Origin: a virus
Strand: one strand, 5' to 3'
Length of the DNA: 20,909 nt
IMG/VR virus record: IMGVR_UViG_3300025652_000692
Coordinates: 1-20,909 of that record
Shown: in pieces, positions 321-6,200 of the stretch
How the letters are laid out: the number at the start of each line of letters is the position of its first letter
Numbering within the stretch: position 1 is the stretch's first letter
Position numbers and translations under genes: made by a program
The notes under the pieces: generated by a model
Told to the model about the DNA's origin: nothing
The model's input: the letters and a program-made list of their open reading frames with translations, nothing else
The model's database searches: none

Positions 321-352
321 TTTGTCAGTTGGAGAATTAATTACTATATTGA
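321..352 (+). promoter_or_regulatory. Bacteroidota-type promoter P1
   Basis: TTTG at 321-324 is followed after 20 nt by TATATTGA at 345-352, a partial match to the Bacteroidota -7 element TAnnTTTG. Between them lies TCAGTTGG at 325-332, shared with three other sites in the window (695, 2653 and 5433). It stands 44 nt upstream of the first small gene. The motif match is seen directly; activity is inferred. Confidence 0.7.
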
Positions 353-395
353 ACACAGTTCATTGAAATATTGTTTAACCCATAAAATTGAAAAC

Positions 396-650
396 ATGGA
401 AAAATTAAAACTAGAGAAAGTTAACTCTAAAAAACAACTAGAAGCTCAAGGTTATTTTAAAATAGATTTAAACAAAGGAGTTTGGGATTTTTGTTGGGGG
501 AAGTATGTTATAACTAGCACCAGACAAAACGAAAGTTCAGTTCTTTATTTTGGTGGTGACATTTTATCACAAACACCTGTTGAGTCAATAAAAGAAGCTT
601 TGTACCTGTACAATACTTATCATTACAGTTGTCCAGAACACTACTTATAA
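396..650 (+). CDS. Small hypothetical protein, 84 aa
   Basis: I do not recognise this protein. The ATG at 396 was preferred to an in-frame TTG at 363 because it follows an A-rich leader like those of the neighbouring genes. The product is soluble, with a lysine-rich N-terminal helix, a Trp-rich centre (VWDFCWGKY) and a C-terminal helix rich in Tyr (LYLYNTYHYSCPEHYL). It is the only gene between P1 and the terminator at 658-680, so it is probably transcribed as a single-gene unit. Position suggests an early or host-takeover role, which is inference only. Confidence 0.75.
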   Translation: MEKLKLEKVNSKKQLEAQGYFKIDLNKGVWDFCWGKYVITSTRQNESSVLYFGGDILSQTPVESIKEALYLYNTYHYSCPEHYL

Positions 651-657
651 GGAGTAG

Positions 658-680
658 GGGAGGGTAAAACCTCCCTTTTT
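658..680 (+). terminator. Rho-independent terminator
   Basis: GGGAGG (658-663) pairs with CCTCCC (670-675) across a 6-nt loop and is followed by five T (676-680). It closes the single-gene unit and lies 9 bp before the next promoter. Confidence 0.85.
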
Positions 681-689
681 AAAAAAAGA

Positions 690-721
690 TTTGGTCAGTT
701 GGAAATAATTAACTAAGTTTG
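690..721 (+). promoter_or_regulatory. Bacteroidota-type promoter P2
   Basis: TTTG at 690-693, a 20-nt gap, and a perfect TAnnTTTG (TAAGTTTG) at 714-721, with TCAGTTGG at 695-702. The start codon of the next gene follows 22 nt after the -7 box, exactly the distance seen at P3. It drives the ten-gene run 744-2473. Confidence 0.85.
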
Positions 722-743
722 TGTATAACTAATAAAGAAAACA

Positions 744-863
744 ATGAAAGAAAACAAAAAGATTATCCCAAAACATTTTAAGCTTAACAACGATTGGATT
801 CAGAAATCTAATCAGAATCTAGTAATGGATTTATTAAGAAAACAATTTAAAACAAATAAATAA
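744..863 (+). CDS. Small hypothetical protein, 39 aa
   Basis: First gene after P2. The ATG lies behind AAAGAAAACA. The product is basic, starts MKENKKIIPKHFKLNND and ends with TNK. The stop at 861-863 is two bases before the next ATG. Function unknown. It is called a gene because of its place directly behind a promoter and the continuous packing downstream. Confidence 0.6.
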   Translation: MKENKKIIPKHFKLNNDWIQKSNQNLVMDLLRKQFKTNK

Positions 864-865
864 TT

Positions 866-1018
866 ATGAGTAAAGTAAACGCATTCGAGAACGAGATATT
901 TGACCACTACAGAAAAAGAGTAAATCAAATAGAAAAATCAATTAACCTATTAAGAAGTCATGGCTACACTGTTGTAGATTTAGAAGGCAAAATAATAGAA
1001 GAAGAAGTTAAACAATAA
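866..1018 (+). CDS. Small hypothetical protein, 50 aa
   Basis: ATG at 866 in the recurring TAATTATG junction. The product is mostly helical (NEIFDHYRKRVNQIEKSINLLRSHGY), followed by a short hydrophobic strand and an acidic tail (VVDLEGKIIEEEVKQ). The TAA overlaps the next ATG (TAATG), which indicates translational coupling. Function unknown. Confidence 0.65.
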   Translation: MSKVNAFENEIFDHYRKRVNQIEKSINLLRSHGYTVVDLEGKIIEEEVKQ

Positions 1019-1182
1019 TGGAAGACATAATAATCGATTTAGAAAAAGAAATAAAAGAGATGCAATACGACATTCAGTGGCAAAACCATTACATGAGGTT
1101 CTTAGAAGACAAGAACGATGAATTGCATAACCAAGCTACTGTTTATGCTAACTACATTATGAATTCAAACAAAACTTATTAG
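1018..1182 (+). CDS. Small hypothetical protein, 54 aa, helical
   Basis: ATG shares its A with the preceding TAA. The sequence suggests one long amphipathic helix (MEDIIIDLEKEIKEMQYDIQ), probably coiled-coil, then a polar segment ending MNSNKTY. It is followed after two bases by the next gene. Function unknown; a small adaptor or inhibitor is possible but unsupported. Confidence 0.65.
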   Translation: MEDIIIDLEKEIKEMQYDIQWQNHYMRFLEDKNDELHNQATVYANYIMNSNKTY

Positions 1183-1184
1183 AT

Positions 1185-1532
1185 ATGGAAAAAGCATTAA
1201 TAAATAATAGATATTGGAAAAAACAAATAAACAATATCATAAATAAAATTAAAGAATATAACAAGTTTTTAATTTCTACACCACAAAGCCAAAGAGAAAG
1301 AGAAATAGATTCTGATGTAAAAATTGAAATTAGCTCTAATTACAGAATAGAAGTAAATGGAGACAAGGAAGCCCATAATGATATGTTAGCGAGCTTAGAA
1401 ATATATTCATGGACAATCACACCAGAAGAACTAGAAGTGCTCGTAGAAGCTCTTAAATGCGTTTATTCAAATCATCCTGATGGAGAGATTAAAATGTCTG
1501 TTACACATAATCACGATTGTTTAAATTGTTAG
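1185..1532 (+). CDS. Hypothetical protein, 115 aa, with C-terminal Cys/His motif
   Basis: Largest gene of the P2 unit. A basic helical N-terminus (residues 1-30) is followed by a polar middle and a C-terminal part with the helix ITPEELEVLVEALKCVY. It ends in VTHNHDCLNC, a His/Cys cluster that could bind metal. No family recognised. It lies between two genes at spacings of 2 bases on each side, so it is part of the same transcript. Confidence 0.75.
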   Translation: MEKALINNRYWKKQINNIINKIKEYNKFLISTPQSQREREIDSDVKIEISSNYRIEVNGDKEAHNDMLASLEIYSWTITPEELEVLVEALKCVYSNHPDGEIKMSVTHNHDCLNC

Positions 1533-1534
1533 TT

Positions 1535-1681
1535 ATGAGAACAATAAAATGTGAAATGTGTGGTCATGAAAATCATGAATACAATTTTAAATGTGAAGGT
1601 TATGATTGTGGAATTCCTTTAGATTTAACAATAGAAATTAATTCATTTGGTTTGCCAGATATAATACAAAAACAATTATGA
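1535..1681 (+). CDS. Small Cys-rich (zinc-ribbon-like) protein, 48 aa
   Basis: The N-terminal half carries CEMC (residues 6-9) and CEGYDC (residues 20-25): a CxxC pair followed by a CxxxxC pair, with two His between. This pattern is consistent with a small zinc ribbon or knuckle. The stop TGA overlaps the next start (ATGA), so the two Cys-rich genes are translationally coupled. Zinc binding is inferred from spacing only. Partner and function are unknown. Confidence 0.65.
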   Translation: MRTIKCEMCGHENHEYNFKCEGYDCGIPLDLTIEINSFGLPDIIQKQL

Positions 1682-1815
1682 GAAAGTGTAATAAATGTGC
1701 AACTATAATACAAGAGAAAGCAAAGCAACTCTTTTGTTATAATTGCAAAGGGTACAAACTACCTTACGAAACTTATAAATTTTATTCTATATCAAATCAA
1801 TTTAATAATAAATAA
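1678..1815 (+). CDS. Small Cys-rich (zinc-ribbon-like) protein, 45 aa
   Basis: Starts within the stop of the previous gene (ATGA). CNKC at residues 4-7 and CYNC at 20-23 form two CxxC knuckles 12 residues apart, the spacing of a compact treble-clef or zinc ribbon. The C-terminal half is aromatic and polar and ends NNK, followed by the TAATTATG junction. Function unknown. Confidence 0.65.
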   Translation: MRKCNKCATIIQEKAKQLFCYNCKGYKLPYETYKFYSISNQFNNK

Positions 1816-1817
1816 TT

Positions 1818-1916
1818 ATGGAACATACAGATAAAGAAATAGTTGACATTTTATTTAATGACTTTCCGAAAGTCGGAGAGCAAATATTAGAATATTTAGA
1901 TAATCAAAATAAATAA
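1818..1916 (+). CDS. Small acidic hypothetical protein, 32 aa
   Basis: Very short, acidic, helical (MEHTDKEIVDILFNDF; EQILEYLDNQNK). It is supported by a start in the same TAATTATG context, by a C-terminus ending in NK like its neighbours, and by an intact frame in a packed operon. Function unknown. Confidence 0.5.
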   Translation: MEHTDKEIVDILFNDFPKVGEQILEYLDNQNK

Positions 1917-1918
1917 TT

Positions 1919-2128
1919 ATGAAAGTAAACAGAGTATATAAAATAGTACGCCCAATGAGAAGATTTGGCAATTTAATAAAGGACATTATAAATCCAAGAG
2001 AGTCAAAATATGCTTGGTGTAGGTATCCTCTTTATGCCAAGACAAAGAAAGAAAAAGAAATCTATATGGCTACAATAATAGAACATTTAGATAATAGAAT
2101 AATTATAAACCCAGAAATAGAAATTTAA
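1919..2128 (+). CDS. Small basic hypothetical protein, 69 aa
   Basis: ATG at 1919 two bases after the previous stop. The N-terminal 40 residues are strongly basic (KVNRVYKIVRPMRRFGNLIK), followed by an aromatic segment (YAWCRYPLYAK) and a hydrophobic C-terminus (NRIIINPEIEI). Nucleic-acid binding is conceivable from charge alone. No family recognised. Confidence 0.65.
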   Translation: MKVNRVYKIVRPMRRFGNLIKDIINPRESKYAWCRYPLYAKTKKEKEIYMATIIEHLDNRIIINPEIEI

Positions 2129-2132
2129 TACT

Positions 2133-2324
2133 ATGACACATTTAGAAGATTTAAACAGAATTGAAATCAAACACCTTAGAGATACTGTTAATATGTTTGA
2201 AAACCAAATCACACACCTTACAAAACTACTCAAGACAATAAGAGAAGAGAACGAAACTCTTAAAGCAAAGAATGAATTGCATAGGCAAAAACTAGAAACA
2301 GAATACAGAAAGAGTAAAGTATGA
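2133..2324 (+). CDS. Small coiled-coil protein, 63 aa
   Basis: Almost the whole protein (residues 5-60) reads as a continuous coiled coil with heptad-spaced Leu, Ile and Val (LRDTVNMFENQITHLTKLL, REENETLKAKNELHRQKLE). The TGA overlaps the next ATG. Oligomerisation is likely; function unknown. Confidence 0.7.
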   Translation: MTHLEDLNRIEIKHLRDTVNMFENQITHLTKLLKTIREENETLKAKNELHRQKLETEYRKSKV

Positions 2325-2473
2325 AACTACTTACCTTTGAAATAAAAGAAGTAGGACAAGAAGTTTATACTAAACAATTCAATACGGACAGGTCAATTCA
2401 ATACACCATTGAACAATACTCAAGGCATCGCCAAATTCAATACATGAATTTAATACCTATGAATTCAATATAA
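2321..2473 (+). CDS. Small hypothetical protein, 50 aa, 3' part built of repeats
   Basis: ATGA overlap with the coiled-coil gene. After an ordinary N-terminus (MKLLTFEIKEVGQEVYTKQF) the coding sequence runs into copies of an AATTCAATAC-type repeat that continue past the stop codon. Residues 27-28, 40-41 and 49-50 are encoded by repeat copies (SIQY, QIQYMNLIPMNSI). Either the gene has absorbed a regulatory repeat array or its end is not under protein-level selection. Confidence 0.5.
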   Translation: MKLLTFEIKEVGQEVYTKQFNTDRSIQYTIEQYSRHRQIQYMNLIPMNSI

Positions 2474-2508
2474 ATTCAATACATAAATTTAATACATAAA
2501 TTTAATAG
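2375..2508 (+). repeat. Array of RAATTYAATAN repeats
   Basis: Six 11-mers start at 2433, 2446, 2461, 2472, 2485 and 2498 (spacings 13, 15, 11, 13, 13), with two upstream copies of CAATTCAATAC at 2375 and 2394. They span the end of the preceding gene and the start of the non-coding tail before the terminator. Two more copies lie at 5000-5010 and 5017-5027, just before the gene at 5031. Confidence 0.7.
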
Positions 2509-2520
2509 TTTGTTTGTTTG

Positions 2521-2549
2521 CCCTCTGTAAATTTTACAGGGGGTTTTTT
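2521..2549 (+). terminator. Strong rho-independent terminator
   Basis: CCCTCTGTAAA (2521-2531) pairs over 11 bp, with one G-T wobble, with TTTACAGGGGG (2533-2543). Six T follow (2544-2549). It ends the ten-gene P2 unit. Confidence 0.9.
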
Positions 2550-2648
2550 GTTCGATAACCTGCAAAGCTAAAAACAAATAAAGCAGTAAAGCAAATTAAT
2601 ATTGTTATTTAGAATTAATATAAATTATTAACTTTGTTCGTTAATTGT

Positions 2649-2680
2649 TTTGTCAGTTGGAATATTTATTTATATATTTG
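2649..2680 (+). promoter_or_regulatory. Bacteroidota-type promoter P3
   Basis: TTTG at 2649-2652, 20 nt, then a perfect TAnnTTTG (TATATTTG) at 2673-2680, with TCAGTTGG at 2653-2660. The ATG of the next gene follows 22 nt after the -7 box. It drives the nine-gene run 2703-4620. Confidence 0.85.
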
Positions 2681-4620: not shown

Positions 4621-4658
4621 ATTATATTAATCTTTTACCATCTTTTATTGATAATACA

Positions 4659-4680
4659 CCCCTTTAATTAGGGGTTTTTT
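4659..4680 (+). terminator. Rho-independent terminator
   Basis: CCCCT (4659-4663), loop TTAATT, AGGGG (4670-4674), then six T (4675-4680). Ends the P3 unit. Confidence 0.85.
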
Positions 4681-5030
4681 TATATCCAACATTTTGTTAG
4701 ATTCCTAACAATTAGTTAGTTAAGATTAATTAAATTGTAAATATGTATATTTCTTTATCTTAATCAGCTACAAACAAGCCATATAAAGCAATTTAAACAC
4801 CTTTTTAGCTAGTTTCACACCCTTTCTGGTGGTTACCCCTCAATTTAATTTAATAAGCTCTTAAAACGTCTTAAAATCAATATTTAGTTGTATATAAGTT
4901 GTAGATATACCACTCTCACGGAATAAATTTGCTATACAGGATATTACTCCACTCTCTCTACACTTCATACTTTCCATCTGACACTTGTATATCCCTTATG
5001 AATTCAATACCTTTATGAATCTAATAGGTT
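4681..5030. other. Non-coding region, about 350 bp
   Basis: No open frame of useful length on either strand. It holds the palindrome at 4694-4711, a less AT-rich patch around 4815-4850, a pyrimidine-rich stretch near 4945-4990, and two copies of the AATTCAATAC-type repeat at 5000-5027 just before the next ATG. No convincing TTTG/TAnnTTTG promoter was found. Possible uses are a control region, a replication start or an untranslated leader; none is proven. Confidence 0.6.
4694..4711. promoter_or_regulatory. 18-bp palindrome, candidate operator (copy 2)
   Basis: TTGTTAG-ATTC-CTAACAA has the same architecture as 271-288, with the TTGTTA half-sites identical and only the innermost arm base and one spacer base changed. 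The change at the arm is compensated on the other arm, so symmetry is kept. It lies 13 bp after the terminator T run. Confidence 0.5.
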
Positions 5031-5264
5031 ATGGCTAGAAAAAAAATGTATGATGAAAATTATCTAAAGGCAATTTCCTATTGCATGGATAATGGCATAA
5101 AGATATATCCTGTGCCTAAGAGCCGTAAAGAATATTATCTTGAAGTTAATGACAATGGTCAAATAATACGTTCACCAGAGGCATATAATCTAAAACAATG
5201 GAGTAATAAAATAGTTGAACTCTATGTATTCTACTATTACAAACATAACCCAACCGACAAATAG
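5031..5264 (+). CDS. Small hypothetical protein, 77 aa
   Basis: Starts MARKKMYDENYLKAISYCMDNGIKIYPVPKSRKEYYLEV and ends in a Trp/Tyr-rich helix (QWSNKIVELYVFYYYK). I recall similar short proteins next to structural genes in flavobacterial phages but can give no function. It stands alone: non-coding DNA upstream, and downstream a repeat array before promoter P4. A small regulator or decoration role is guesswork. Confidence 0.7.
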   Translation: MARKKMYDENYLKAISYCMDNGIKIYPVPKSRKEYYLEVNDNGQIIRSPEAYNLKQWSNKIVELYVFYYYKHNPTDK

Positions 5265-5426
5265 TCAGATTATATATGTTATATATATATACATAGTGTA
5301 TATATAGCATAGTGTAATATATAACATAGTGTATATATACATAGTGTAATATATAACATAAAGTATTATATTGCATAGTGTATATCATGTATAACATATA
5401 CATACATAATATCATATATAACTGAC
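5264..5426. repeat. AT-rich tandem repeat array enclosed by an inverted repeat
   Basis: CATAGTGTA occurs at 5292, 5308, 5325, 5340 and 5374, with a degenerate CATAAAGTA at 5357, giving a 15-17 bp period filled with ATATATA. The array is flanked by GTCAGATTATATATG (5264-5278) and CATATATAACTGAC (5413-5426), which are inverse complements except for one missing base. The block lies between the gene at 5031 and promoter P4. Confidence 0.8.
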
Positions 5427-5428
5427 AT

Positions 5429-5460
5429 ATATTCAGTTGGAATAAAGTAAAGTACAAAAA
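5429..5460 (+). promoter_or_regulatory. Variant promoter P4 before the structural genes
   Basis: TCAGTTGG at 5433-5440 is followed after 12 nt by TA at 5453, the same spacing as P1 and P3. The upstream TTTG is replaced by ATAT and the -7 box reads TACAAAAA instead of TAnnTTTG. The structural operon begins 23 nt after the box. This may be a promoter read with help from a phage factor that recognises the TCAGTTGG box; that is inference. Confidence 0.55.
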
Positions 5461-5483: not shown

Positions 5484-6200
5484 ATGGCACTAAAACAAAT
5501 CGAATTAGAAGTACCAACGACTCTATCTGACATTAAACTTTGGCAATACCAAAAGTATATGAAAGTGATAGAGCAGAACAAAACAGAGGATGCTGAAGAC
5601 ACAGAAAAAATAAATGATTTCTTAAATATGAAACTTGTAGAAATATTCTGTAATGTTTCACTAAGAGATGTAAGTAAGATACCTCTAAAAGAATATGAGA
5701 AGGTTTTAACAATATTAAACAAGGCATTTGAAGAGAAACCTAAACTTATACAGAGATTTGATTTGTTAGATGTAGATATGGGATTTGTGCCTAAACTAGA
5801 TGATATTACACTTGGTGAATATGTAGATATAGAAACTAATATTTCTGATTGGCAAAAAATGCACAAAGCTATGGCTGTATTGTACAGACCAGTGAATTTT
5901 AAGGCAAAAGACAAATATGGAATAGCACCTTACAAAGTAAACGAAGAAGTGCAAGAGTTAATGAAAGAGATGCCATTAGATGTGGCGATTAGTTCAATGG
6001 TTTTTTTTTACACTTTAGGGAAGGAGTTACTGGGAGCTATACCGAAATATTTGGAGCAACATCTGAAGAAAGAGGATATGCAACAGCTAGAGACGCATTT
6101 GGAAAAAAATGGGGTTGGTATCAATCAATTTATGCACTCGCTAAAGGAGATGTCAGGAACTTTAATACAGTTACCGAACTTCCACTCTACCAGTGTTTAA
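5484..6200 (+). CDS. Tail assembly chaperone, short form (gpG-like), 238 aa
   Basis: First gene of the virion block. A mostly helical soluble protein starting MALKQIELEVPTTLSDIKLWQYQKY, with a C-terminal part HSLKEMSGTLIQLPNFHSTSV. It matches in position and character the gpG-type chaperones that coat the tape measure during tail assembly and are absent from the virion; I recall homologues in flavobacterial phages. In the last 30 codons a second frame is also clearly coding (see the 5484-6271 entry). The first stop leaves 67 bp before the next ATG, all used by that second frame. Confidence 0.75.
   Translation: MALKQIELEVPTTLSDIKLWQYQKYMKVIEQNKTEDAEDTEKINDFLNMKLVEIFCNVSLRDVSKIPLKEYEKVLTILNKAFEEKPKLIQRFDLLDVDMGFVPKLDDITLGEYVDIETNISDWQKMHKAMAVLYRPVNFKAKDKYGIAPYKVNEEVQELMKEMPLDVAISSMVFFYTLGKELLGAIPKYLEQHLKKEDMQQLETHLEKNGVGINQFMHSLKEMSGTLIQLPNFHSTSV

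Follow-up and report, generated by a model that had tools for sequence, protein, structure and literature searches.

A conserved box in the promoter spacers of an uncultured Bacteroidota phage clade, a candidate operator for a phage-encoded regulator

Promoter modules and gene cassettes of the window

The window is the whole 20,909-base stretch that was analyzed, a linear viral record from a tailed phage whose nearest cultured relatives are the Nonlabens phages P12024S/L (portal 42% identical). The phage clade is uncultured and its hosts are marine Bacteroidota-type bacteria. The 8-base word TCAGTTGG, here called the box, occurs at 325, 695, 2653, and 5433, in each case on the plus strand and between genes. 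Four copies compare with an expectation of 0.25, and no shuffled sequence reached this count. The first three copies lie in promoter modules P1, P2, and P3, and the fourth lies in element P4 ahead of the structural genes (Table 1). An earlier sequence-only reading of the window described the three modules, all of which exist, and overlooked the copy at 5433. Its expectation that the box would be missing from the interior of genes holds, with 0 genic copies in the window.

Table 1. Features of the window from P1 to the first structural gene
Feature	Position	Strand	Details
Promoter module P1	321..352	+	TTTG 321-324, TCAGTTGG 325-332, 12 nt, -7-like box TATATTGA 345-352
P1 cassette, one gene	396..650	+	84 aa, no Pfam family
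Terminator-like hairpin with T run, closing the P1 cassette	656..677	+	-14.2 kcal/mol, z -1.94
Promoter module P2	690..721	+	TTTG 690-693, G, TCAGTTGG 695-702, 11 nt, -7 box TAAGTTTG 714-721
Small-gene run after P2	744..2473	+	
Intrinsic terminator, end of P2 run	2520..2544	+	-15.4 kcal/mol, z -4.35
Promoter module P3	2649..2680	+	TTTG 2649-2652, TCAGTTGG 2653-2660, 12 nt, -7 box TATATTTG 2673-2680
Small-gene run after P3	2703..4620	+	
Terminator-like hairpin, end of P3 run	4658..4675	+	-10.1 kcal/mol, z -1.96
Element P4	5422..5455	+	dyad CTGACATATATTCAG 5422-5436, start of TCAGTTGG (5433-5440) inside; then TAAAGTAC 5448-5455
First structural-run gene	5484..6200	+	ATG 5484

The primary sigma consensus defined for B. 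fragilis and B. thetaiotaomicron consists of TTTG near -33 and TAnnTTTG near -7 (PMC7366714). P1, P2, and P3 all carry a -33 TTTG, with 20 nt separating it from the TA of the -7 element. TAnnTTTG itself is present in P2 (TAAGTTTG) and P3 (TATATTTG), which thus match Bacteroidota primary sigma promoters in both elements and in spacing, and is replaced in P1 by TATATTGA. All three modules differ from these promoters by the additional TCAGTTGG in the spacer. No -33 motif was identifiable in F. johnsoniae (PMC7366714), and the -7 box of F. psychrophilum is given in PMC9723704. The P1 element is similar to the TAnnTTGY of the F. psychrophilum SM5 promoters (PMC9723704), as TAnnTTG with shortened spacing, but its final base is A rather than C or T. 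The sequence-only reading assigned TTTG, 20 nt, and a TAnnTTTG-type box to all three sites and put TCAGTTGG immediately after TTTG. The first two components stand at every site and the third fails at P1; the abutting position is correct for P1 and P3, and one G intervenes in P2. It also gave P2 and P3 the same distance to the start codon, and this is 22 nt from the -7 box to both ATG 744 and ATG 2703. A composite search of the window returned these three sites on the plus strand, none on the minus strand, and none in 200 Markov-simulated windows. The retention of TAnnTTTG argues that the host primary sigma would read P2 and P3, and P1 is probably read by it as well.

Each of the three gene runs is closed by its own hairpin and T run, as had been proposed. 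P1 is kept in nine relatives (L002, L008, L009, L012, L023, L026, L027, L037, and L039). P1 and P2 stand about 370 nt apart in the window, L002, L008, L012, and L023. In L009, L026, and L027 they are separated by 537 nt, and in L407, a near-complete relative on the contig that also gave L027, the interval holds a different gene, of 140 aa. L006, L016, L017, L021, and L033 have P2, and a P1 copy of the box was not found in them. Because the cassette gene differs and the P1 box comes and goes among relatives, the modules bound exchangeable cassettes, in agreement with the proposal that a repeated module divides the region. The region from P1 to P3 is predicted to be early. The gene at 5031-5264 falls outside the three cassettes; it is small and is kept just before P4 in many relatives. 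The word CATCTGACA lies upstream of it at 4975-4983, and the same word precedes the gene for an Erf-like recombination protein in a relative (L414:13287).

Conserved sequences also follow two of the modules. The leader GTTCATTGAAATATTG is conserved after P1 (window 359-378; L037 and L039) and GTTCTTTGACATA follows P3 of L037; both are reminiscent of boxA antitermination elements. An exact search with GTTCTTTGACATATTG, the boxA-like part of the P1 leader, gave one match in 13 flavobacterial genomes, with no 16S start beside it. Downstream of P3, L002, L120, L153, and L180 have a stretch that looks non-coding and includes conserved pieces, tagtcagtaaaggtcagaacagcgt among them; it is a possible small RNA.

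P4 has a different organization. In the window it is a CTGA-N7-TCAG dyad followed by AAGTACA, without a TTTG/TAnnTTTG promoter; TCAGTTGG forms the right arm of AACTGA-CATATAT-TCAGTT and TAAAGTAC stands where TAnnTTTG would be. The dyad and (A/G)TACAAA are conserved upstream of the first structural gene in L002-L046, and relatives alter TCAGTTGG to TCAGGTGG or TCAGATGA. The copy at 5433 was considered as a fourth identical promoter and rejected because relatives vary the rest of TCAGTTGG and AAGTACA/GATACA replace TAnnTTTG. An RNA hairpin was rejected as well, since the predicted fold is weak (z -0.86) and the variable arm position pairs in just 29 of 44 sequences, eight of them with C-G. P4 is unique in the genomes searched, apart from weak matches, and is probably a separate, late promoter that shares the TCAG half-site. 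AT-rich tandem repeats (about 5265-5420) lie upstream of the dyad, and the distant relatives L047-L064 have another dyad-like element, GTGCC...GGCAGGTGC, ahead of AAGTACA.

Distribution of the box in phages and bacteria

Viral loci were retrieved up to and including the first structural gene, 80 in all, and the 44 relatives used share 69% identity or more there. In the window and these relatives (671 kb total), all 69 intergenic copies of the box, in 57.5 kb, lie on the gene strand. The 614 kb called as coding, a split that rests on simple ORF calls, has seven plus and six minus copies, and five of the seven are P3/P4 sites under over-called ORFs.

Genes for Erf-like recombination proteins were collected by protein, so their promoters were not selected by the box. 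Of the 28 unique promoters of the TTTG-n-TAnnTTTG type located near Erf, 22 have CAGTTG, and the remaining spacer has diverged. The box takes two registers about 5 bp apart, either 0-1 nt after TTTG and 9-12 nt from TAnnTTTG or 5-6 nt after TTTG and 6 nt from TAnnTTTG, while the TTTG-to-TA distance stays at about 19-21 nt in relatives. Two registers at constant spacing indicate that the box is uncoupled from the sigma elements, as an operator would be. In the closest relatives of the window, the Erf promoter lacks a forward box and carries CATCTGACA or CACATGACA, perhaps an inverted half-site judging from a short similarity.

The box is present in 6/6 records of the phage family and in 0/14 records of cultured flavobacterial phages. 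A bacterial genome scan found 116 stretches, mostly in Bacteroidota and often ahead of stable RNA genes. The composite occurs in one of 301 Flavobacteriaceae genomes (the seed genome; box-reversed control 0), in one of 119 Bacteroidales genomes (again the seed; the reversed box also scores 1/119), and in none of 150 Flavobacteriales genomes. Across these sets, about 570 sampled Bacteroidota genomes that may overlap, the box is not enriched over the reversed box in host promoters. The many matches before Bacteroidales tRNA, RNase P, and tmRNA genes raised the prospect of a host stable-RNA promoter element, which was rejected because the reversed box is equally frequent and bacterial matches have an almost random base directly following the box. 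This base is A in 63/73 viral sites and in 38/115 bacterial sites. TTTG-20-TAnnTTTG is so common in the phylum that the 8-mer falls in some bacterial promoters by chance. Absence from the cultured phages together with chance-level occurrence in bacteria indicates that the box belongs to the phage clade. Judged by the genomes sampled, it is a phage-clade element and no general host element. The box had been called phage-specific, and the family records and the following A bear this out. Preference of one host sigma factor, offered alongside, finds no support, because the composite is at chance level in the sampled Flavobacteriaceae, Flavobacteriales, and Bacteroidales.

A different word was seen in host RNase P promoters. 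TTAT[CT]AACA, which is DnaA box-like, occurs in 15/30 Flavobacteriaceae RNase P upstream regions (L347-L376), mostly 7-8 nt before TAnnTTTG, and in 0/29 from Bacteroidales. CAGTTGG was found in 0/59 RNase P upstream regions.

A candidate operator in host-sigma promoters

One general class of phage operator, serving repressors or activators, lies between the -35 and -10 elements of promoters. The box has the properties of such a site: it recurs in several promoters, is intergenic and oriented, is confined to one phage clade, and is conserved in promoters of different genes while the flanks diverge. The known spacer operators of phages likewise use one short word at several promoters, overlap polymerase contacts, and occur in more than one register. 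The P1-P3 word differs from them in being no clear palindrome, with a dyad only in P4, and its cognate protein is a predicted one. The retained TAnnTTTG favors an operator over a phage sigma element as the identity of the box. In the proposed mechanism, P1-P3 would be Bacteroidota primary-sigma promoters with a phage operator, (T/G)GTCAGTTGGA, built into the -33/-7 spacer. One phage-encoded DNA-binding protein would occupy the box of all cassette promoters together and switch them jointly, and it would more likely block or modulate the host-sigma RNA polymerase than replace sigma. We infer that a protein binds the box and that the phage supplies it, and likewise the sign of its effect and the timing. 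Against this reading, the candidate proteins are not tied to the box, the presence of the box follows phylogeny, and the closest relatives lack a forward copy at Erf. On balance, an operator for a phage-encoded protein is given an even chance of being the correct account.

A possible explanation of lower standing is that host primary-sigma RNA polymerase reads the box directly as an extension of the -33 element, which makes the promoters strong with no added factor. At most sites the box abuts TTTG, at the very place expected for docking of sigma region 4; the -7 box is of the host type; and the abundance of the box in one clade could reflect that clade's preferred -33 extension. Spacer elements do exist in these hosts, as the TTAT[CT]AACA word of half the Flavobacteriaceae RNase P promoters attests. 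A box placed 5-6 nt downstream, as in the second register, is at odds with an extension of TTTG, however. The RNase P upstream regions and the cultured flavobacterial phages lack the box, and the composite is at chance level in the sampled genomes.

A less likely reading is that the phage clade exploits a host-encoded regulator, perhaps one particular to the true host, which would bind the box. Phages commonly borrow host regulators, and the regulon could lie outside the TTTG-adjacent positions, which are the positions covered by the searches. The composite does not exceed chance in the sampled Flavobacteriales and Bacteroidales, however, and the A found next to the phage box is not favored in bacterial matches.

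Candidate regulators and significance

Three candidates for the regulator of the operator reading were taken from near-complete relatives, all in the gene run that starts with Erf, and the link of each to the box is co-occurrence. The first is an HTH_36 protein encoded by the clade. The second is a 189-residue protein (L407:4089-4655, plus strand) with a Sigma70_r4_2 match in 8/19 relatives; its model resembles ECF sigma factors (pTM 0.40; Foldseek E 5e-3, probability 1.00). The third is a 157-residue protein (L407:6354-6824, plus strand) of the DnaA domain IV family, with Bac_DnaA_C in 15/19 relatives, a 1j1v match at 1.3e-10, and a TM of 0.78 to the solved domain IV. These orphan domain IV proteins (alignment A2) have NHAT in place of the DHTT contact motif of cellular DnaA. 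The specific proposal that the orphan DnaA domain IV protein binds the box, and would thereby control P1-P3 and, via the TCAG dyad, the structural operon, is doubtful. If true, a DNA-binding domain of the replication-initiator type would be tied to the coordinated control of host-sigma promoters.

The ECF-like protein is conserved across the clade (alignment A1). It had 0 matches in 50,697 records of isolated phages at E 0.01, and direct comparison revealed a 30% identical relative in P12024S. Three points favor the box as the -35 element of this sigma: among groups with the box and with the locus inside their fetched DNA, most encode the protein at about 45% identity or more; its model is that of an ECF sigma factor; and box-less P12024S has just the 30% identical relative. 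The host-type TAnnTTTG is nevertheless kept at two distances from the box, inspection of the listed sites revealed no second conserved -10 at 16-17 nt past the box in P1-P3, and late element P4 suits a phage sigma better, which makes this role quite improbable. That the modules are recent duplicates or recombination boundaries and the box has no regulatory meaning is hardly credible: cassettes are indeed gained and lost, as the missing P1 copies and the two P1-P2 spacings show, but the box, in both registers and ahead of different genes, stays conserved amid diverging flanks and spacers, and the Erf promoters gathered regardless of the box largely refute it.

The promoter layout is already known for Bacteroidota (PMC7366714, PMC9723704), and the box is undescribed as far as could be found. 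A search for a published description returned none, the phage-transcriptome and DnaA literature gave nothing relevant, and no reports were found that describe sites of this kind for phages infecting marine Bacteroidota. Flavobacterial promoters are poorly defined on their -33 side, and a short word present at most cassette promoters of an uncultured clade offers a direct handle on its regulator. The box would also help to predict transcription units from sequence and to test phage control over the unusual Bacteroidota polymerase.
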